NCBI GenBank assembly: GCA_016287245.1
Contig: JAEEWG010000012.1
Coordinates: 1 to 64,000, forward strand
Reading direction: 5' to 3'
Source of the DNA: Clostridia bacterium
GTDB lineage: Bacteria; Bacillota; Clostridia; Saccharofermentanales; Saccharofermentanaceae
DNA: 64,000 bases
The first letter of the stretch is position 1. Each line of letters begins with the position of its first letter. Of the stretch, positions 3,200 through 32,457 are shown piece by piece. The notes under the pieces are model-generated. The model did not search any database. It saw only the letters and a program-made list of their open reading frames with translations, and had not been told where the DNA came from. Position numbers and translations under genes: made by a program.

Positions 3200-4780
3200 A
3201 TGTGTTCCATTATGTTTTATCTGCGCCCGGATCTGACGCAGGAACAATTCAAGGAGGGTTTTGACAAGACGATCTCCCGAGGCCCGGACCAGAGCCGGAT
3301 CGTCGACCTCAAAGACGGTACCATGGGCTTTCACCGACTGTCCATCATGGGATTGACCCCGGAAGGTATGCAGCCCTTCTCCCGATCCGGAAAATACCTC
3401 GTCTGCAACGGCGAGATCTATGGTTTTGAAGCATTTCGCCAGGAACTTATCTCCGATGGCATTACTTTCGCCTCGGATTCCGACTGTGAAGTGCTTCTTC
3501 CTTTATATGAAAAGTACGGCGTCGATATGTTCAGCAAGCTCGATGCAGAGTTCGCCCTGATCATCTACGACACCGAAAGCAAGTCCCTGGTCGCGGCAAG
3601 AGACCCGATCGGCATCCGTCCTATGTACTACGGATTCGACGACGAAGGTCACATCGCTCTGGCCAGCGAGGCAAAGAACATCGTCCCCTACTGCAAAAAG
3701 GTCCTCCCCTTCCCGCCCGGACATTACTATAAGGACGGAAAGTTCACCTGCTACTGCGATATCACGAAAGTTGAAAAGGTCTTGGATGACGATCTTCCGA
3801 CGATCTTCAGAAACATCCACGACAAGCTTATAAGCGGCGTAAAGAAGCGTCTCGTTTCCGATTCCAAAGTCGGTTTCCTTCTTTCCGGCGGACTGGATTC
3901 CTCTCTCGTCTGCGCGATCGCACAGGAGATGGAAGACCACCCGATCAAGACTTTCGCGATCGGTATGAGCGAAGATGCGATCGACTTAAAGTATGCCAAG
4001 GAAGTCGCGGACTACATCCACTCCGAGCATACCGAAGTCATCATCACCAAAGAAGATGTCATCAACTCTCTCGAAGAAGTCATCGAGGTGCTCGGCACAT
4101 ACGATATCACCACGATCCGCGCATCGATGGGTATGTATCTTCTCTGTAAAAAGATCCACGAGATCTCGGATGTCCGCGTGCTTCTCACCGGCGAGATCTC
4201 CGATGAACTTTTCGGATATAAATACACAGACTTCGCGCCGTCGGCCGAAGCTTTTCAGGAGGAAGCCGTCAAGCGTATCCACGAGATCCACATGTACGAT
4301 GTACTCCGTGCGGACCGCTGCATCTCGGCAAACTCCCTGGAAGCACGTGTTCCGTTCGGCGATCTCGATTTCGTCAAATACGTCATGGCGATCGATCCTA
4401 AGAAGAAACTCAACACATACGGCAAAGGCAAGTATCTCCTTCGTAAGGCATTTGAAGGAGATCTGCTCCCGCACGATATCCTCTTCCGTGAAAAGGCCGC
4501 TTTTTCAGATGCAGTCGGCCACTCCATGGTAGATCACCTAAAAGAATATGCCGCTTCGTACTACAGTGACGAAGAGTACGAAGAAAGAAGAAAGAAATAC
4601 ACATTCGCCACGCCTTTCACCAAGGAATCTCTCCTCTACCGCGAGATCTTCGAGAAGCACTACGAAGGTCAGGCCGAGATGGTCATCGACTTCTGGATGC
4701 CGAACAGATCCTGGGAAGGCTGCGATGTAAATGACCCGTCTGCCCGTGTTCTCAAAAACTACGGTGACAGCGGCAAATGA
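3200..4780 (+). CDS. asnB: Asparagine synthase (glutamine-hydrolysing)
   Basis: This 526-residue enzyme transfers amide nitrogen from glutamine to aspartate with ATP. Cys2 at the start (MCSIMF) is the Ntn glutaminase nucleophile. The N-terminal glutaminase domain spans about residues 1-190, with the DPIGIRPMYYG segment. The C-terminal synthetase domain carries the pyrophosphate loop SGGLDSSL near residue 230 and later ARVPFGD. Length is normal for bacterial AsnB. GGAGG lies just before the ATG. It sits with glnN and amt in a nitrogen-assimilation group and has its own attenuator-like leader. Confidence 0.95.
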   Translation: MCSIMFYLRPDLTQEQFKEGFDKTISRGPDQSRIVDLKDGTMGFHRLSIMGLTPEGMQPFSRSGKYLVCNGEIYGFEAFRQELISDGITFASDSDCEVLLPLYEKYGVDMFSKLDAEFALIIYDTESKSLVAARDPIGIRPMYYGFDDEGHIALASEAKNIVPYCKKVLPFPPGHYYKDGKFTCYCDITKVEKVLDDDLPTIFRNIHDKLISGVKKRLVSDSKVGFLLSGGLDSSLVCAIAQEMEDHPIKTFAIGMSEDAIDLKYAKEVADYIHSEHTEVIITKEDVINSLEEVIEVLGTYDITTIRASMGMYLLCKKIHEISDVRVLLTGEISDELFGYKYTDFAPSAEAFQEEAVKRIHEIHMYDVLRADRCISANSLEARVPFGDLDFVKYVMAIDPKKKLNTYGKGKYLLRKAFEGDLLPHDILFREKAAFSDAVGHSMVDHLKEYAASYYSDEEYEERRKKYTFATPFTKESLLYREIFEKHYEGQAEMVIDFWMPNRSWEGCDVNDPSARVLKNYGDSGK

Positions 4781-23266: not shown

Positions 23267-24724
23267 TCAGTTTCCTCCTTCCCGAATAATATATTTGAAC
23301 GCATCTTCCTTATACCAGGACTCCTTATACGGGAGTTTGACGTGTTCTGAAAGTTTCTTATTAAAGCCCGGATTTTCGAGCTGATCGGCGATCTTGTTTC
23401 CGAGGAAAAGAAGGCCGTCATATCCCATGGTCGGACGCTTGCCATCCAGAACATGCGTCGTCGGAACACCGAGTTTGGCTGCCCATTCCGGAACTCCGAT
23501 AAAAGCATCCGGCTTGAGTTTATTGACGAGGTTGACCTGTTCAAACGGCTGCATGTTCGCGATATCCACCACGAATTCCTTATGGATGCCGTTCAGATAT
23601 TCGATATCTACCTGAGCATCGTCATCGTAGGTCGGTGTCTCGAGTCCTACAAGTTCCATACCGAAGTCATCGATCAGGGCCGCGGCCGCAAAAGAACGGC
23701 CGGTACCACCGCAGATGAATACCCGCTTTCCAGCAAGACGGTCACGGAGCTTTTTTACGAGAGGTTCGATCCTCTCATGTTCTTTTTCGATGATCTCTTC
23801 GACCTCTTTTTCTTTTCCGATAACCTTCGCGATCCCCCTGTACCACTTATCGGTATTTCTTATACCGATCGGCATGACCGTATGAGAGTAAGGGATCTCA
23901 TATTCTTCCCAGAGTGTCTTCATGAACTCATCGGCGAACACTTTACAGATGGATGTAGAAGCTTCCGCTGCCGGGATCTTCCGGATCTTTTCGAGCGAAC
24001 TGTAGAAAGGAATATAGTTCACTTTCGCACCGAGGAGCTGGAGCATTCTCTCCATCTCTTTCTGATCGGCATAACTGACCGTCGTCGGCGCGAAAAGATT
24101 GATCAGACCGGCTTCTTTTTCTACCTTCTGATGCTTAAGGATATACTTGTTGATCGAGATGAACGCCGCATCAAAGCCGGAAGCGCAGATCTTCGACTTA
24201 AAGCCTTCGCAGTGGATCGGGATGATCAATGTATCCGGATACTCTGTCTGTAGATCCGAGCAGATGGCATCGATGTCATCACCGATGATGCCGGATGCAC
24301 AGGATGCAAAGACAAACGCAAGTTTCGGAGCATATCTCTTTACCGCTTTATCCACGGCTTCCCTAAGTTTCTTCTCGCCACCGAAGACAACACTCTTCTG
24401 ATCGATATTCGATACGATCAGATGAGGATTCTTTACATTACGCACGCCGCGGTGGATCTGACCGACGCGGTACATATCGACCGCCATGATCGAGCAGCCC
24501 ACACATCCTTGTGGAGAATGAGAGATGAAGACTGCGTCCTCGAGGGACATGAGCGCGGCAAGGCTATTGATCTGCTGGCACTGAAGGCCCTGGGCAAAAG
24601 ATCTGTCCGCACGCTTTAAGCATCCTTTTTTGAAATTTTCACTCACCTCTTGTCCGGTTGAGCCTAAATCATTGAGTCTGCCCGGTTTACTTTCTCTTAC
24701 ACCGGAATAGGTTACTTTCGCCAT
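23267..24724 (-). CDS. Nitrogenase component 1 family, NifD-like catalytic subunit (pair B)
   Basis: A 485-residue alpha-type subunit. P-cluster-type cysteines are Cys49, Cys74 (HSPQGC) and Cys142 (ASCASGIIGDD). Cys260 aligns with the NifD cofactor ligand Cys275, judged by distance to WEEYEIPY. His424 (GVPTTH...GYDG) aligns exactly with the NifD cofactor ligand His442. Residues essential for N2 reduction, around Gln191 and His195 of NifD, are not kept (HCEGFKSKICASGFDAA). This suggests a FeMo-co-type cluster with a different substrate. It is the best candidate for the active site of the system. Confidence 0.85.
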   Translation of the reverse strand: MAKVTYSGVRESKPGRLNDLGSTGQEVSENFKKGCLKRADRSFAQGLQCQQINSLAALMSLEDAVFISHSPQGCVGCSIMAVDMYRVGQIHRGVRNVKNPHLIVSNIDQKSVVFGGEKKLREAVDKAVKRYAPKLAFVFASCASGIIGDDIDAICSDLQTEYPDTLIIPIHCEGFKSKICASGFDAAFISINKYILKHQKVEKEAGLINLFAPTTVSYADQKEMERMLQLLGAKVNYIPFYSSLEKIRKIPAAEASTSICKVFADEFMKTLWEEYEIPYSHTVMPIGIRNTDKWYRGIAKVIGKEKEVEEIIEKEHERIEPLVKKLRDRLAGKRVFICGGTGRSFAAAALIDDFGMELVGLETPTYDDDAQVDIEYLNGIHKEFVVDIANMQPFEQVNLVNKLKPDAFIGVPEWAAKLGVPTTHVLDGKRPTMGYDGLLFLGNKIADQLENPGFNKKLSEHVKLPYKESWYKEDAFKYIIREGGN

Positions 24725-24739
24725 ACATTCAGCTCCTTC

Positions 24740-25213
24740 TTATGCTTCTTCCGGCACAGCCTGACTCTTTCGGAGTGACTGCCGGCTGTCGATCTTATAG
24801 TAGTAGGATGAGATCTTATCCAGCGCATCCTCCACGCTGACATCCACATCGAAAACGGAAATGGCTTTTTTCTCAAACTGCTTTTGAGCCTGAAAGCCGA
24901 TTTTCCGGCAGACTACCGCCCGGCAGTCTTCGATCAGCGCGACTTTACCAAGGACTTCCGTCCCACCGCCGCAGCCATGTCCATTTCCTCCGCATCCGCC
25001 GCCGTTTCCTCCGCAGGAACCCGTGCCTTTCTCCCCGCAGGAAGCTGCGCGTTCCGGTTCTTTTCCCGCATCAGAAGAGGGATCGACATGGCGGACCTCC
25101 AGGAACTCCAGATCCTGACCATCCACACGATAGATATAGAAGCGGTCGGTCTCGCCGAACTTCAGATCCACATGGATCCCGTTGGATGAACCAAACGCGA
25201 TTTTATATGCCAT
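24740..25213 (-). CDS. NifX/NafY-like protein with Gly/Cys-rich insert
   Basis: The 157-residue protein is of the dinitrogenase iron-molybdenum cofactor biosynthesis family, with an RNase H-like fold (KIAFGSSNGIHVDLKFGETDRFYIY, then VALIEDCRAVVCRKIG). A low-complexity insert at about 59-84 has four cysteines (59, 67, 74, 81) among glycines, plus a histidine. The insert could bind metal or a cluster. Family members carry or insert cofactor precursors. Its place directly before the pair B genes suggests a dedicated cofactor chaperone for that enzyme. Confidence 0.8.
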   Translation of the reverse strand: MAYKIAFGSSNGIHVDLKFGETDRFYIYRVDGQDLEFLEVRHVDPSSDAGKEPERAASCGEKGTGSCGGNGGGCGGNGHGCGGGTEVLGKVALIEDCRAVVCRKIGFQAQKQFEKKAISVFDVDVSVEDALDKISSYYYKIDSRQSLRKSQAVPEEA

Positions 25214-25292: not shown

Positions 25293-26591
25293 TCAGTTGA
25301 ATCGCGAAACAGCAATCGTGTAGATATCTTCGATCAGCCTGATGCCGCCGGCATATCCGGCGTAAAAGCTGTCGAAGACGACTTTGTCCTGTACCGGCCA
25401 GGAAATGTTCAGGAAGTTGCCCTTAAGGTTTTCGGTCACTTCCTTCTCGTAGTATCCACCGAGTACCAGCGGATAACCATGGTAATCGTGGTTCCTGATC
25501 TCTTCATGGATCTTATAGCCGTCTGTCTCAAAAGATACTTCCGCTTCGATACCGAAGTTGAGTTTTTTGAATTCTTCCGCGATTCTTTCGCGATAGTTCT
25601 TCGGCGTATCATCCACGACGAACTGTTTTGCCGGGATCAGACCGAGATCGTTTACGAGAAACTTCGTGATGGCCAGAGAATACTGGGCATCCGCCACAAC
25701 GGTGAACTGCTTGTTGATAACACGGTTCTCCAGGAAAAGATCCGCATAACGGGAGATGAGATAGTAGTAGTAATCCTCATGCTCTTTGATGACGGCTTCC
25801 ACCTTCTCTTCCGTGACTCCCGCAAACTTTCCGACTTCACGCAGGAACTTGCTGGTCTCTGTGGCACCGATCGGAAGATTCGGATAGTGAAGATACGGAG
25901 TACCGAACTTTCTCTCCATCTTCTTTACGTTACTGAGGCCCACCCACGGAGATACGAGAAGATTGAACTCCGCTTCCGGGATCTTATTGATGTTCTCGAT
26001 ACCGCGCTTATATCCGAAAATCGTATTCGGAGTAAGACCCAGTTCAGCGATCAGCTTTTCCAGTTCTCTTAAGTTTCCGAGCCAGAAAAGATCCTGATAA
26101 GGAACATCCGCCCAGATATTGATCAGACCTTTCTGCTTCTTGTCCGACTTCTTCAGATACTGGTCGATGATGGCATCGACGACCTGTTCATGACCCTTGT
26201 AGTTGTTACCCTTAAATCCTGCTGTCGGTGCATAGACGACCGGTTTTTCCGCATCTTCGTAACGGGATACGACCTCACCGGAATCATCGCCGACGATCTC
26301 CGGGATACATCCTGTAAGAACGACATACAGATCTGCATCGATGACCTTCAGTGCATTCCCGATCGTGGAATCCAGTTTCTTCACGCCACCGAAAACAACG
26401 TCTTTTTCATTGATACTGGTGCACGGGAAGATGTTCGGAGAGAAATATCCGGAGCTTCCTGTCGATTCCGAAAGTTTCTGTGCGCAGCCCGGGCCGCTGT
26501 GCAGGATCGGGAGTGCCCGATCGATCGCCTGAACGGTCTGCATCGCGCCCAGCGCACATTTATATCTTTGCTTGTCTAGAAGTTTCGCCAT
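25293..26591 (-). CDS. Nitrogenase component 1 family, NifN/NifK-like subunit (pair A)
   Basis: 432 residues with cysteines at 12 (KCALGAMQ), 36 (HSGPGC) and 95 (TGCIPEIVGDD), the beta-subunit cluster pattern. Its ATG overlaps the last base of the partner gene. It would pair with the 26591-28057 product. Since that partner lacks the cofactor histidine, the pair may work as a NifEN-like scaffold for cofactor assembly. A second enzyme with other specificity is the alternative. Confidence 0.82.
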   Translation of the reverse strand: MAKLLDKQRYKCALGAMQTVQAIDRALPILHSGPGCAQKLSESTGSSGYFSPNIFPCTSINEKDVVFGGVKKLDSTIGNALKVIDADLYVVLTGCIPEIVGDDSGEVVSRYEDAEKPVVYAPTAGFKGNNYKGHEQVVDAIIDQYLKKSDKKQKGLINIWADVPYQDLFWLGNLRELEKLIAELGLTPNTIFGYKRGIENINKIPEAEFNLLVSPWVGLSNVKKMERKFGTPYLHYPNLPIGATETSKFLREVGKFAGVTEEKVEAVIKEHEDYYYYLISRYADLFLENRVINKQFTVVADAQYSLAITKFLVNDLGLIPAKQFVVDDTPKNYRERIAEEFKKLNFGIEAEVSFETDGYKIHEEIRNHDYHGYPLVLGGYYEKEVTENLKGNFLNISWPVQDKVVFDSFYAGYAGGIRLIEDIYTIAVSRFN

Positions 26592-28057
26592 TATTTCGTC
26601 TCCTCCAGGAACTTATCTACATTCTGCTGATACCACCAGTCGGTGTAAGGAAGCTTGGTACGCTTCGCCAGATTCTCCTCGAAGCTTCTGTTATTGATCG
26701 CATCGAGAACGGTCTTGGCAAATTCGAGCGTATGCTTGTATCCGAATATCATGTACTCATCTGCCACATAGATGGCCGGTGTGCCGTTCTTGATCGCCCA
26801 TACGGTGGAACCCGGATGGCGCGAAAGATACATATCCGGCTGATACTTGTGAAGGATGTTCATGACCTCGAAATTCTGCTGGTCCGCAACACTTGCTTCA
26901 AAGTCGATATCGGTATCCAGAAGATACTTCATGGACGGCGGAACATCGCCGTTTTCATACTTCTTGTCATAATGCCATGCCAGAGCCCATACTACCTTGA
27001 TACCGAGTTCATTGAGAACACGGGATACTTCAAATGTATAACCCGGACCCATGCCGAGCACGGCCGTCTTTCCTTCCAGCTGCTTCTTGATCTCCTCGAT
27101 CTGCGGAAGATAGATCGCACGCTGCTCCTGGATATATTTCTCGATCGGTTCGGATCTTCCTGTGACCCGTCCGATCTCGCGGAGCCATGTTTCAAAGCCT
27201 ACGATACCGCACTGGTTGATCGATCTGACATACGGGACACCGTACTTTTCTTCCAGGGCATTTCCGAGATAGTTACCGAGGGTTCCGCAGATGCATGTCG
27301 TCGCAAGGCTCTCGGAAATATGTGAAAGTTCTTCGACTGTTGAGTTGCAGTAGAGGAATACCGGATCCAGATCGAAGTTTTTAAACATCTCGATGATCTC
27401 CGGACGGGCGCTTTCGAAGAAGTTCTTGAAGTTGATCTTATTCGTTTTCACGCCTTCTCTCGGCGGCTGTACGATCGACTGAAGGACCGCATGGTCGGAG
27501 ATATCAAAACCGGTCGCCCATATACGGGACTTAAAGCCTTCGCAGTGAACCGCCACGATCGGCACACCGACTTCATCTCGTACTTCATCCACGATACTGT
27601 CGATATCCTCACCGATGATACCTGTTGCGCAGGAACTCGATACAAAGATCGCCTTCGGGGAATATCTTTTGTTGACTTCGAGGATGACGTTACGGAGTGC
27701 ATTCGTGGAACCGAATATCGTATCGTTCTCGTTCATATCGGTTCCGACATAGATAGTGTTGCTGGTCACGCCACGCTTCTTGGACATAACCTTAGCCATG
27801 TAATAGGCACCCGCTGCAGCGACCGAGCATCCTGCCGGTCCGTGATGGATAAGTGCGATATCACGGATACCGCAGAGCTGACCCAGTGCGCAGGACGAAA
27901 GACATGTACTGGACTGGGAGAAGCAGCGCGAGCAGCCTTTCAGCGTGCCGCATTCGCTCTTTGTCGCTAGGTCCTTGAGTGTACCTACATAACCGGTAAT
28001 GGAACCGATGCGGTTTTCTCTTGTGGCGACATTCGAATTAGATAAGTTGATAGCCAT
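26591..28057 (-). CDS. Nitrogenase component 1 family, NifE/NifD-like subunit (pair A)
   Basis: 488 residues. Cluster cysteines align at Cys52, Cys77 (HHGPAGC) and Cys143 (SSSCATGIIGED). Cys257 aligns with the NifD cofactor cysteine (12 residues before EEKYGVPY). The His442 position is not histidine (GTPAIYVADEYMIFGYKH). In known systems NifE also keeps the cysteine and lacks this histidine, so a scaffold role is plausible. The N-terminus has extra cysteines (GCSRCFSQSSTCLSSC) that may hold a further cluster. It is translationally coupled to the next gene. Confidence 0.82.
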   Translation of the reverse strand: MAINLSNSNVATRENRIGSITGYVGTLKDLATKSECGTLKGCSRCFSQSSTCLSSCALGQLCGIRDIALIHHGPAGCSVAAAGAYYMAKVMSKKRGVTSNTIYVGTDMNENDTIFGSTNALRNVILEVNKRYSPKAIFVSSSCATGIIGEDIDSIVDEVRDEVGVPIVAVHCEGFKSRIWATGFDISDHAVLQSIVQPPREGVKTNKINFKNFFESARPEIIEMFKNFDLDPVFLYCNSTVEELSHISESLATTCICGTLGNYLGNALEEKYGVPYVRSINQCGIVGFETWLREIGRVTGRSEPIEKYIQEQRAIYLPQIEEIKKQLEGKTAVLGMGPGYTFEVSRVLNELGIKVVWALAWHYDKKYENGDVPPSMKYLLDTDIDFEASVADQQNFEVMNILHKYQPDMYLSRHPGSTVWAIKNGTPAIYVADEYMIFGYKHTLEFAKTVLDAINNRSFEENLAKRTKLPYTDWWYQQNVDKFLEETK

Positions 28058-28075: not shown

Positions 28076-29092
28076 TTAGAATCCAGCTTTTTCTTCCACT
28101 TCCGGACGGATCTTCTGAAGATCCTCGGAAAGATAACGCTCACCGTTATCCGGGAGAAGCGGTACGATCAGTTTTCCGGCGTTCTCTTCCTTCTGCGCCA
28201 GCTTGATGGCAACGGCCAGAGAAGCACCTGCAGAAGCACCAACGAAGATACCCTCGTATTTGGCAAGAAGGTGGATCGCACGGAGCGTCTCTGCGTAAGA
28301 AATGAACGAGTATTCATCCGCAAGATCGCCGTTGAAGTTTGTCGGAGCCATTGGTGTCAGACCCTCATCATTATGTACCTGATGGATACCGTGAAAACCG
28401 CCGTCCTCAACACCTTCGAGGATCGGGTGTACTACATCGTTCGGATCCGGCTGTGTGATAACGACCTTCACCGACGGGTTCTTTTCCTTAAGGAACTTAC
28501 TTACACCATGAGTGGATCCGCCTGTACCTACGCCACCGACGAAGATATCTACTTTTCCGTCTGTATCTTCCCAGATCTCCGGACCGGTGTGCTTGTAGTG
28601 GGCATTGATATTATCCGGATTATCGAGCTGACGGGTAGAGAACGGATGATCGATACCCTTTTCCATGTATTCGATGACATCTGCAAAAGCAGCGATACCC
28701 TTTTCAAATACGCCTGCGATCAGCTCATTCGGTACTTCAGCGATCTCTGCCTGATAGGCTTCCAGGAGCTTCTTTCTCTCGATCGACACACCATTCTGAA
28801 GACCGATCTTAAACTTATAGCCCTTTGCCGCGGCAAATGCAGCCATGGCCACACCTGTGTTACCGGATGTAAACTCGATGAGAGTCGTCTTCTCCGGGCT
28901 GATATCGCCGCGCTTTTCTGCCGCTTCGATGATCTCCAGAGCCATTCTGTCCTTATGTGATCCTGCCGGATTGAAGTATTCGAGCTTACCTGCGATACGT
29001 CCCTTCAGACCGAGCTTTTCTTCGAGTCTTTTGAATTCTACGATCGGTGTATGTCCGACCAGTTCTGTAATGGAATTATAGATCTTTCCCAT
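28076..29092 (-). CDS. Cysteine synthase family paralogue (PLP beta-substitution enzyme)
   Basis: A 338-residue fold-type II PLP enzyme with Lys47 in NPAGSHKDR, the substrate loop TSGNTG and the phosphate loop GTGGSTHG. It differs from the operon's other cysteine synthase at 31231 by His before the PLP-lysine block (usual SVKDR) and by a longer C-terminus. It lies between the nifH-like and nif-component genes, in a sulfur locus. It might use a thiol other than sulfide, for example methanethiol, but that is inference. Domain assignment is firm; substrates are not. Confidence 0.85.
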   Translation of the reverse strand: MGKIYNSITELVGHTPIVEFKRLEEKLGLKGRIAGKLEYFNPAGSHKDRMALEIIEAAEKRGDISPEKTTLIEFTSGNTGVAMAAFAAAKGYKFKIGLQNGVSIERKKLLEAYQAEIAEVPNELIAGVFEKGIAAFADVIEYMEKGIDHPFSTRQLDNPDNINAHYKHTGPEIWEDTDGKVDIFVGGVGTGGSTHGVSKFLKEKNPSVKVVITQPDPNDVVHPILEGVEDGGFHGIHQVHNDEGLTPMAPTNFNGDLADEYSFISYAETLRAIHLLAKYEGIFVGASAGASLAVAIKLAQKEENAGKLIVPLLPDNGERYLSEDLQKIRPEVEEKAGF

Positions 29093-29127: not shown

Positions 29128-29991
<864 letters not shown>

Positions 29992-30348
29992 TCACTTAAA
30001 TAATTCATTCACTTTTTCGAATCGGATCATCTTATCGATCGATTCAGAGATCACTCCCGGGATCTCATAAACATTGATTCCATATTGTTCCAATACTGCT
30101 CTTGCTCCGTCTCCGATCCTGCTTGCCAGAAGATGTGTGCAGTCCGAAAGCCTCTCTACATTTTCTTTCAGTCTTGCCTCATCATGTTCCCCTGTCTCAC
30201 ATACCGGCGGAAGCTTCCTTACTTCCAGAAGATCCGGCCCGGCTTCTTCATACTCATAGATGTAGAATGCCCTGGCCCGTCCGAAGTGATTATTCACTAC
30301 GATCCCGTCGCTTGAGGCCACCGCGATGCGGTACTTTTCTTTATCCAT
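29992..30348 (-). CDS. NifX-domain protein (like the C-terminal domain of NifB)
   Basis: A 118-residue single-domain protein of the dinitrogenase cofactor family (YRIAVASSDGIVVNNHFGRARAFYIYE). The fold is that fused to the C-terminus of many NifB proteins. Here the nifB-like gene lacks it and the two genes overlap by 8 bases, so they act as a split NifB-NifX. It likely binds the NifB cofactor for delivery to the scaffold pair. Confidence 0.85.
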   Translation of the reverse strand: MDKEKYRIAVASSDGIVVNNHFGRARAFYIYEYEEAGPDLLEVRKLPPVCETGEHDEARLKENVERLSDCTHLLASRIGDGARAVLEQYGINVYEIPGVISESIDKMIRFEKVNELFK

Positions 30349-31213
30349 GAGAGAATGTCTCCTTTACTCCGAGCCTTTTCTGGTAGATCCGGTCACCGTA
30401 TTCGCTCTTTCCCGGTACTCCGACCGCATCTGCACGACAGTGCTGGCAGTGACGGAAAACATCGATATACTTGGATGCTCTTGTCCTTGCCGCATCGATC
30501 TGCGCACAGGTCGGTGCCGGTTCATCACGGAGCTCATGCTGCGGGATCAGGGGGATGATATTGTAGATCTTCGCTCCGGCTTCTTTTACCGTCTTTGCGA
30601 TCTCTTCGATATGATCTCCGTTGATACTCGGTACCAGCACGGTGTTGACCTTTATGGTGATCCCCGCGGCTGCTACTTTACGAATACCGACCAGCTGGTT
30701 TTCGATCAGGATCTTCGCTGCTTCGACTCCCTCGATTCTCTTCCCGTGATAGATAATGTAGGCATTCAGCTTACTTTCTATCTCGGGATCCACCGCGTTT
30801 ACGGTCACCGTAAGAGAATCGACTCCGACTCGGATCACATCTTCTGCTCTTTCATTCAGAAGAAGGCCGTTGGTGCTCATGCACTTGATAAGATTCGGGA
30901 ATTTCTCCTTCACGATCTTAAAAGTATCGAGCGCATAATCGGAAGCCAGTGTATCTCCCGGACCGGCAATACCGGCCACTTTGATCTCCGGACAGATCTC
31001 CAGTGCTTTTTTCAGGATCTCTTCCGTTTCTTCAGGTTTCAGTACTTTGGATGTCACTCCCGGCCGCTGCTCGACATCGTTGATGGTCCGGTCACAGAAC
31101 CGGCATGCGATATTGCATCCCGGGCTTACCGGAAGATGGATCCTTCCGGCATTGTTCTTATGACCGCCGAAGCACGGATGGGAGTGCTGAAGTTCCTCGT
31201 ATGTATTACTCAT
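30341..31213 (-). CDS. nifB: NifB-like radical SAM cofactor maturase
   Basis: 290 residues that would make the carbide-containing 8Fe core cluster (NifB-co) from 4Fe-4S units and S-adenosylmethionine. The radical SAM motif is Cys33-x3-Cys37-x2-Cys40 (GCNIACRFC). NifB-specific cluster ligands are Cys14 (HPCF) and Cys256/Cys259 (HCQHCRADAVG). RPGVTS and AGPGDTLA are further NifB hallmarks. The protein stops after the core, as in archaeal short NifB. Its presence argues that the nearby component 1 enzyme carries a nitrogenase-type cofactor. CfbD or BchNB systems need no NifB. Confidence 0.92.
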   Translation of the reverse strand: MSNTYEELQHSHPCFGGHKNNAGRIHLPVSPGCNIACRFCDRTINDVEQRPGVTSKVLKPEETEEILKKALEICPEIKVAGIAGPGDTLASDYALDTFKIVKEKFPNLIKCMSTNGLLLNERAEDVIRVGVDSLTVTVNAVDPEIESKLNAYIIYHGKRIEGVEAAKILIENQLVGIRKVAAAGITIKVNTVLVPSINGDHIEEIAKTVKEAGAKIYNIIPLIPQHELRDEPAPTCAQIDAARTRASKYIDVFRHCQHCRADAVGVPGKSEYGDRIYQKRLGVKETFSHG

Positions 31214-31230: not shown

Positions 31231-32166
31231 TCAGGAATTGAACAGCGGAGTAGAGAGATAACGGTCACCGGAATCAGGAAGAAGTGCAACGATCACTTTA
31301 CCCTTATTCTCCGGTCTCTTTGCAAGGATCTCTGCAGCCTTAAGAGCTGCACCGGAAGAAATACCGACGAGGATACCTTCGGAAACGGCGAATGCTTTTC
31401 CTTCTGCAAAAGCATCTTCGTTAGCGATCGTGATGATCTCATCGTAAACCTTCGTATTCAGTACATCCGGAACGAATCCTGCGCCGATGCCCTGGATCTT
31501 ATGTGCACCCGGAACACCGGTAGAAAGTACTGCACTTGTGGCCGGTTCTACAGCGACGACCTTCACGTTCGGATTCTGCTCCTTGAGGTATTCGCCTACA
31601 CCTGTGATCGTTCCGCCGGTACCTACACCAGCTACGAAAATATCTACCTTACCATCGGTCTGCTTCCAGATCTCCGGTCCTGTTGTTTCCTTATGTATCT
31701 TCGGGTTTGCCGGGTTCACGAACTGGCCTAAGATGATCGAGCCTTCGATCACCTTATTCAGCTCTTCCGCCTTTGCGATCGCACCCTTCATGCCCTTGGC
31801 ACCCTCTGTAAGTACGAGCTCGGCGCCGTAAGCCTTAAGAAGATTTCTTCTTTCCACGCTCATCGTATCCGGGAGAGTAAGGATCGCTTTGTAGCCCTTC
31901 GCTGCTGCAACTGCTGCAAGTCCGATACCTGTGTTACCGGAAGTCGGTTCGATGATCGTCGCACCCGGCTTCAGAAGGCCCTTATTCTCTGCGTCTTCGA
32001 TCATGGCCTGTGCGATTCTGTCCTTCACGGATCCTGCCGGATTCAGATACTCCAGCTTACCGAGCACAGTCGCCTCTGTGATCTCTCTTTTCTTGGAATA
32101 CGCATTCAGCTGAAGAAGCGGCGTATTTCCGATCAATTCTAATGCACTTTGTTTAATCTCACTCAT
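31231..32166 (-). CDS. cysK: Cysteine synthase (O-acetylserine sulfhydrylase)
   Basis: The 311-residue PLP enzyme makes cysteine from O-acetylserine and sulfide. The PLP lysine is Lys48 in NPAGSVKDR, the substrate loop is SGNTG, and GTGGTITG binds the PLP phosphate. Length and motifs are canonical. It is the first structural gene of the nif-like operon, behind the Cys-rich leader peptide and terminator. This links the operon to cysteine synthesis. CysE, which supplies O-acetylserine, is encoded at 38605. Confidence 0.95.
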
Positions 32167-32184: not shown

Positions 32185-32236
32185 AAAAAAATTAGCTGCC
32201 ACCTTCCAAGGTAACAACTACTAAAAAATTGTTGTT
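32185..32236 (-). terminator. Attenuator: terminator with competing antiterminator before cysK
   Basis: The terminator stem pairs 32215-32219 and 32208-32212 with 32194-32198 and 32201-32205 (AGTTG/CAGCT and ACCTT/AAGGT), followed by T7 at 32185-32191. Its 5' arm can instead pair with AACAAC upstream (32231-32236 with 32213-32218). The antiterminator 5' arm begins about 18 bases after the leader-peptide stop, where a terminating ribosome would mask it. Confidence 0.7.
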
Positions 32237-32253
32237 TCCATTCAAAAGGGTTT

Positions 32254-32337
32254 TTATGATCCTGTTTTTAAACATGTCGAACACATACAACACATGCAAC
32301 ACATCTGCTTGAGTTTTCGATCCATCATATTCTTCAT
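32254..32337 (-). CDS. Cys/Met-rich 27-residue leader peptide
   Basis: GGGAGG lies 7 bases before the ATG, a strong ribosome site. The peptide has six Cys and six Met in 27 residues, concentrated in MCCMCCMCSTC (residues 12-22). It is followed at once by alternative hairpins and an intrinsic terminator ahead of cysK. This is the layout of ribosome-mediated attenuation: stalling at Cys (or Met) codons when the charged tRNA is scarce would let transcription proceed. The peptide itself probably has no other role. Confidence 0.8.
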   Translation of the reverse strand: MKNMMDRKLKQMCCMCCMCSTCLKTGS

Positions 32338-32388
32338 GTTTGTTTCCTCCCTCTTGAAGTTTTCGTGTTCCCTGCTTGGGATGAGTCA

Positions 32389-32457
32389 ATAGTAGCATGA
32401 CATGACTCCTTTGAAAAATCGTTCCTTTTTATCGCCTGTGATAACTTTTGTTTATAA
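32389..32457 (-). promoter_or_regulatory. Sulfur-regulon promoter and operator, cysK/nif-like operon
   Basis: On the minus strand: TTATA-N9-TATCA-N4-CGATA (32457 to 32430), then 13 bases, TTTCAA (32416-32411), then 16 bases, TACTAT (32394-32389). All spacings equal those of the two other sites. A LysR-type activator such as CmbR/CysB is the likely binder. Confidence 0.75.

Follow-up and report, generated by a model that had tools for sequence, protein, structure and literature searches.

The DNA directly 5' of a nitrogenase-like operon in a Clostridia genome very probably specifies a ribosome-mediated transcription attenuator through which Cys-tRNA supply controls cysK and the nitrogenase-like genes alike. 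We analyzed a 64,000-nucleotide stretch (the window), one contig of a 2.98-Mb draft genome, in which the leader, the terminator, and cysK all lie on the minus strand. The proposal is built on a short open reading frame (ORF), its runs of Cys codons, an intrinsic terminator, a long antiterminator exclusive with it, and the conservation, co-variation, and spacing of these parts.

Leader, terminator, and antiterminator 5' of cysK

The control region has these features, in the direction of transcription.

32429..32444, minus strand: palindrome TTATCAC-N4-GATAA (TTATCACAGGCGATAA), candidate LysR-type regulator site, 5' of the promoter
32387..32418, minus strand: candidate promoter TTTTTCAAA ... TACTATTG, kept in relatives (by eye)
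32344..32353, minus strand: leader Shine-Dalgarno sequence GAGGGAGGAA, 6 nt 5' of the ATG
32254..32337, minus strand: leader ORF MKNMMDRKLKQMCCMCCMCSTCLKTGS plus stop, 27 codons, kept in relatives
32272..32304, minus strand: Cys-codon core ATG TGT TGC ATG TGT TGT ATG TGT TCG ACA TGT
32231..32250, minus strand: antiterminator 5' arm CCCTTTTGAATGGAAACAAC, beginning 7 nt past the first base of the stop codon
32202..32218, minus strand: shared segment GTTGTTACCTTGGAAGG, at once the antiterminator 3' arm and the terminator 5' arm plus loop
32185..32220, minus strand: intrinsic terminator, 12-pair stem plus T7 (hairpin 32193-32220), 95.7% paired across relatives

A sequence-only reading of this DNA had described an ORF of 27 codons, six of them Cys and six Met, behind a strong ribosome site and, just 5' of cysK, an intrinsic terminator with T7. 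Both descriptions were exact, with the ORF on the minus strand and cysK starting at 32166. Measured against the window proteins (1.3% Cys), the binomial probability of the leader's composition was 1e-6 for Cys and 2e-4 for Met. The leader was the sole Shine-Dalgarno-preceded ORF of 12 to 45 codons with at least five Cys codons in the 64-kb window. As a chance control, 60 dinucleotide-shuffled windows yielded 0.08 Shine-Dalgarno-preceded short ORFs with at least five Cys per window, none with at least six Cys in 30 amino acids and none with a terminator. The probability that the leader and terminator are arranged this way by chance is practically nil. T-boxes are present elsewhere in the same genome. 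At the leader site we found no riboswitch and no match to the T-box covariance model (RF00230), and we rejected either element as the control device there.

Over 13 sequences, 95.7% of the terminator stem was paired, and compensatory changes were present; its covariation score exceeded that of every one of 500 shuffles and, by far, that of slid partners. The antiterminator, CCCTTTTGAATGGAAACAAC paired with GTTGTTACCTTGGAAGG, had a duplex energy of -13.9 kcal/mol in the window and of -11.9 to -17.7 kcal/mol in 17 family leaders, and it is mutually exclusive with the terminator through the shared segment. It had been called weak, which proved mistaken: the AACAAC/GTTGTT pairing named at the time is only the inner part of this helix. 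Changes in the arm are matched by changes in the loop (CCAAAAGG with CTTTTGG, CCAACA with TGTTG, and CGGAATGTG with CACGTTTTG). When partners were swapped among 13 representatives, which as related sequences are not fully independent, native pairs summed to -187.3 versus -165.2 (standard deviation, 8.6) for species-swapped pairs (permutation P = 0.007). Shuffled arms equaled the native arm in 0 to 7.7% of cases. In equilibrium folding of transcripts ending 5' of the terminator's 3' arm, the antiterminator helix dominated.

The candidate promoter fell below the pass level of a consensus promoter scan. The palindrome pattern is unique within the window and was seen by eye 5' of the leader in nearly all relatives. 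It is likely a LysR-type site, so the operon seems to be doubly controlled. A related palindrome site also precedes cysK at L049, a locus without a leader.

Leaders in related operons

NifD-like orthologs of at least 91% identity were present in 22 of 115 genomes of the window's GTDB family. The sequence-only reading had named a lack of conservation of the Cys-rich ORF in relatives as an outcome that would refute it. The comparison went the other way: a leader with a Shine-Dalgarno sequence, Cys codons, and a terminator stood directly before cysK in 13 of the 14 complete cysK-upstream regions of the family (the sole exception, L049, has no leader at all), and 12 genomes outside the window's group also had a Cys-rich leader and a terminator before the operon. 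Each part, from the ORF and its cysteines to the terminator and antiterminator, is kept or co-varies in relatives. Within the genus, a DNA search placed one copy of the leader in each of 14 genomes out of 23 and added five further leader sequences, every one followed by cysK. Additional Cys leaders in the source genome were sought by pattern and by DNA search.

The family peptides range from MKNMMDRxxxQMCCMCCMCSTC to MKNITNMKEEMCQMCQMCSMCCRTN, MNKRLMCRGMCMRMLMCRCSRHKT, and the two-Cys MNKRSMCKEMRMYMCRISRHRT, and the L048 leader has just two Cys codons versus five Met codons (start included). This variation in length, ends, and Cys spacing argues against a small functional Cys-rich protein, such as a metal or sulfur carrier, that is co-transcribed with the operon and has an ordinary terminator behind it. 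A good ribosome site and a conserved ORF would suit such a protein; the terminator, however, has a co-varying antiterminator, and the ORF always lies directly 5' of the operon's first gene. We consider the chance of this explanation close to negligible.

Further afield, 20 of 80 orthologous loci in named genomes carried a Cys-rich short ORF and a terminator 5' of cysK or, in loci that lack cysK, 5' of nifB. Twelve of these 20 lie outside the window's group, mostly in Lachnospiraceae, and their peptides are unrelated apart from Cys runs such as CCCCC (examples are MMNREMCKCCNMCCKSSVCKNMVCFLNTF, MKTNNMASNRRNNNCCCCCQAVYMNTVYFSYV, MIRRANFKQNTCMCKTMCSLLRHKVCF, MSRLLNCECKDMCCKGTVCKDMVYFLYTL, MRTNQEKMMDCMCCCKAVCNNMVCSSYTL, and MKAKDVVVNKSRKDMCCCCCQTVYMNMVCFSHA). 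Many orthologous operons outside the family, among the 80 loci, have no leader, and none was found when sought in the distant orthologs L055-L064 (45 to 87% NifD identity, other families), two of which have a SAM riboswitch instead. The recurrence of Cys runs at the same place in differing peptides is the strongest evidence that the Cys codons are the functional part.

The same divergence weighs against the idea that the nascent Cys-rich peptide is itself the sensor, binding a metal, an Fe-S precursor, or thiol/sulfide and arresting the ribosome. The cysteines are closely spaced, MKNMMDR is strongly kept at the nucleotide level inside the genus, and the operon encodes Fe-S enzymes, all of which would suit a sensing peptide. 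Outside the genus, however, the peptides share nothing but Cys codons and the Cys spacing is not kept, and we give this idea very little credence.

Which amino acid is sensed had been left as Cys-tRNA or Met-tRNA. The same attenuator could sense Met codons, or Met and Cys jointly as a measure of general sulfur amino acid supply: the window leader has six Met codons, Met is kept between the Cys pairs (MCCMCCMC), Met is in excess in the family leaders (P of about 1e-4), and the L048 leader is richer in Met than in Cys. Against this stand the Lachnospiraceae leaders, which have CCCC or CCCCC runs without a Met excess (P = 0.10 to 0.14 for two types); no leader has a Met run, and the operon starts with a cysteine synthase. 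We rejected Met as the signal because its excess is not kept in all lineages, and we regard sensing of Met, alone or jointly, as unlikely. Cys is common to the leaders across lineages and Met is not, so Cys-tRNA is the likely signal; the Cys half of the earlier claim stood, and the Met half lacked generality.

Among the Lachnospiraceae leaders, L110, L129, L145, and L163 have an arm like the window's antiterminator arm near the stop codon, and L114, L148, and L164 showed no convincing arm. Immediately 3' of the Cys run, Lachnospiraceae leaders have a conserved hairpin within the ORF (ACTGTAT...ATATGGTT; one-sided changes only), seen at L151, L158, L162, L163, L145, L110, L114, L124, and L148. 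It may explain the conserved TVYMNMV residues, and an RNA polymerase pause hairpin is a possible role. The spirochaete locus L168 has, at 3380 on the plus strand, a short ORF, MMIAYFEKLVRENYRNGVMCCCRQFL, before nifB with three Cys codons near the stop and no clear terminator.

At L109, L112, L117, and L131, a similarly laid out antiterminator/terminator pair (e.g., CTCTTACGGCGAAC ... GTTGCCGAGAG) stands just 5' of cysK, and no leader ORF was found between promoter and terminator. These loci would fit an attenuator in which a protein or the rate of transcription, and not leader translation, sets the default, with the Cys codons secondary. In several lineages, however, otherwise unrelated peptides have Cys runs at a spacing that could work, and this explanation is in our judgment quite improbable.

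Ribosome position and the proposed switch

The antiterminator arm of the 17 family leaders starts 3 to 13 nt past the stop codon's first base, which the last Cys codon precedes by 12 to 24 nt. Counted from the first base of the A-site codon, the front edge of a ribosome lies about 14 nt ahead. With this edge, a ribosome that waits at any of the Cys codons would not touch the arm, and a ribosome at the stop codon would cover the arm's outer half. Masking the stop-codon footprint (+14) changed the mean antiterminator energy from -14.6 to about -8.6 kcal/mol, versus about -15 kcal/mol for the terminator; the helix lost little stability in L043, a pattern less marked in L042, L045, and L092. The earlier proposal that a ribosome at the stop codon would cover the 5' arm would hold for the outer arm, next to the stop codon, and not for AACAAC itself.

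An equilibrium model of ribosome position on the full transcript was uninformative on the switch: the terminator was favored in most sequences at every ribosome position. The switch would therefore have to be kinetic. A classical 1:2 hairpin, UGUUGU codons with AACAAC, was set aside as no better than chance, since codon-shuffled ORFs paired equally well; pairing of the Cys codons with the antiterminator arm was no better than that of shuffled ORFs in 16 of 17 leaders. The trp and his attenuators combine a short ORF rich in regulatory codons with a mutually exclusive antiterminator and terminator, and the window leader resembles them in both respects. A protector (1:2) hairpin is present in trp and his and not in every attenuator. 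Unlike them, the window family has no supported protector hairpin; what seems to drive its switch is that a ribosome on the stop codon masks the outer antiterminator arm.

Translation of the ORF, stalling at Cys codons, read-through at cysteine shortage, and a kinetic decision are the parts of the model that we infer. Transcription would enter the leader with a ribosome behind. With plentiful Cys-tRNA, the ribosome would get to the stop codon and its front would lie over the arm's outer half, which would leave the antiterminator no more than its weak inner helix; the terminator would form, and transcription would end before cysK. With scarce Cys-tRNA, the ribosome would wait at a Cys codon 5' of the stop and leave the whole arm free. 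The long antiterminator would then form first and hold the terminator's 5' strand, and the operon would be transcribed. A stop-codon ribosome could in this way do the masking in place of a protector hairpin.

About 32 related loci have a tRNA-Cys(GCA)-like gene between cysK and nifB (L110:3703-3772, L114:1599-1668, L130:3551-3620, L163:3674-3743, and about 28 more); the window has no such gene. These genes score only 38 to 47 bits in Rfam and often lie right behind a strong intrinsic terminator. Their discriminator base is G (16 copies) or A (15 copies), never U, in 31 readable copies, and in the L163 genome another tRNA-Cys does have U73. CysRS relies on this base as its main identity element, and because it is missing, the RNA is probably no normal CysRS substrate. 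The gene is possibly a tRNA mimic, a processing signal, or a decoy; a tie to the attenuator is only suggested, by shared theme. A wider picture is conceivable, though we hold it doubtful: Clostridia that have T-boxes elsewhere may set Cys-codon attenuators, working by stop-codon occlusion without a protector hairpin, before a single nitrogenase-like operon for sulfur scavenging, which in many relatives also carries this tRNA-Cys-like RNA, so that tRNA-Cys status would be read or altered at two points.

The sulfur operon and known systems

The operon runs on the minus strand from 32166 down to 23267.

31231..32166, minus strand: cysK (cysteine synthase A), first gene, NCBIfam TIGR01139 above cut-off
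30341..31213, minus strand: NifB-like radical SAM protein
29992..30348, minus strand: NifX/NifB C-terminal-like protein
29128..29976, minus strand: NifH-like reductase, TIGR01287 above cut-off
28076..29092, minus strand: second, divergent CysK-like protein
26591..28057, minus strand: NifD-like subunit, nearest solved structure MarD (9fmg)
25293..26591, minus strand: NifK-like subunit
23267..25213, minus strand: second NifX-like and NifE/D-like proteins, end of the operon

The D/K subunits all score below the nif cut-offs, and the solved structure closest to the NifD-like protein, 9fmg, is the methylthio-alkane reductase MarDK2H2. The encoded enzyme is probably a nitrogenase-like, sulfur-scavenging one, and the cysteine synthases with the methylthio-alkane reductase-like enzyme fit the making and scavenging of cysteine. 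The genes 5' of the operon, named from their translations except for ssuA-like, which came from a profile search, are a sulfonate-type ABC transporter (ssuA-like), two LysR genes, cysE, and PatB-like and MetB-like genes, i.e., apparent sulfur assimilation genes. Methylthio-alkane reductase and isethionate-reducing operons likewise use a NifHDK-like enzyme for sulfur scavenging (PMC12552129, PMC11423573); unlike for the window operon, no leader peptide or attenuator is mentioned for them in these two papers.

The nearest named relatives are rumen and gut metagenome-assembled genomes (MAGs) labeled Clostridiales, Lachnospiraceae, or Ruminococcaceae, and the NifD-like protein of JAFZKB010000029 (water-buffalo reticulum) is 100% identical to that of the window. 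Operon orthologs with NifD-like proteins of 85 to 86% identity occur at L160, L161, L165, L167-L169, L173, and L174, in genomes labeled Bacteroidales, Paludibacteraceae, or Treponema/Spirochaetaceae; they likely reflect horizontal transfer among gut and rumen bacteria, or else MAG binning errors. In L055, L056, and L058, a conserved ORF of about 50 amino acids (e.g., MAEKLPKDYPEIVRKMIEELEYGQITVIVQDGKVVQIEQTKK...) directly 5' of nifB resembles YezD-type small proteins of sulfur operons. SAM riboswitches lie near nitrogenase-like genes of two distant relatives (L060:14459-14568, plus strand; L062:8041-8152, minus strand), so other lineages appear to put related genes near methionine/SAM control.

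Cysteine attenuators have precedents. The uORFC-8-2 motif 5' of cysS in Rhodobacterales is a predicted ribosome-mediated attenuator that, like the window, has a short ORF with tandem Cys codons and an intrinsic terminator (PMC8632094); by its description it differs in being alphaproteobacterial, in having two Cys codons inside the first stem, and in targeting cysteinyl-tRNA synthetase. Mycobacterial polycysteine leaderless uORFs (Canestrari et al. 2020) act by translation attenuation according to PMC13236596, and they share with the window an upstream run of Cys codons and cysteine-responsive control of sulfur operons. As so described, they differ in being actinobacterial and leaderless and in attenuating translation, and earlier comparative work reported no conserved terminator hairpin for them (PMC1262725). 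Histidine leader-peptide attenuation at hisS/hisZ is likewise reported in Firmicutes, where T-boxes are the rule, but concerns histidine and Bacilli (PMC2965389). The Cys T-box before cysK/cysE of Clostridium perfringens shares with our proposed switch the tRNA-Cys charging input and termination before cysK; its RNA, in contrast, binds tRNA directly and has no leader ORF (PMC2940859). The sequence-only reading had thought a cysteine attenuator on a nitrogenase-like operon new. The cysteine attenuator as such is precedented by the mycobacterial and Rhodobacterales cysS cases, whereas the lineage, the target, and the build are new, and our literature search found no description of an attenuator on a nitrogenase-like sulfur operon.

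The attenuator would link a nitrogenase-like enzyme system, for whose control in anaerobic gut and rumen bacteria we found no description in the literature searched, to cysteine supply. It would also add cysteine and Clostridia to leader-peptide attenuation, which is rarely reported in Firmicutes. This suggests that the role of the nitrogenase-like enzymes is in making cysteine from organic sulfur and not in fixing nitrogen.
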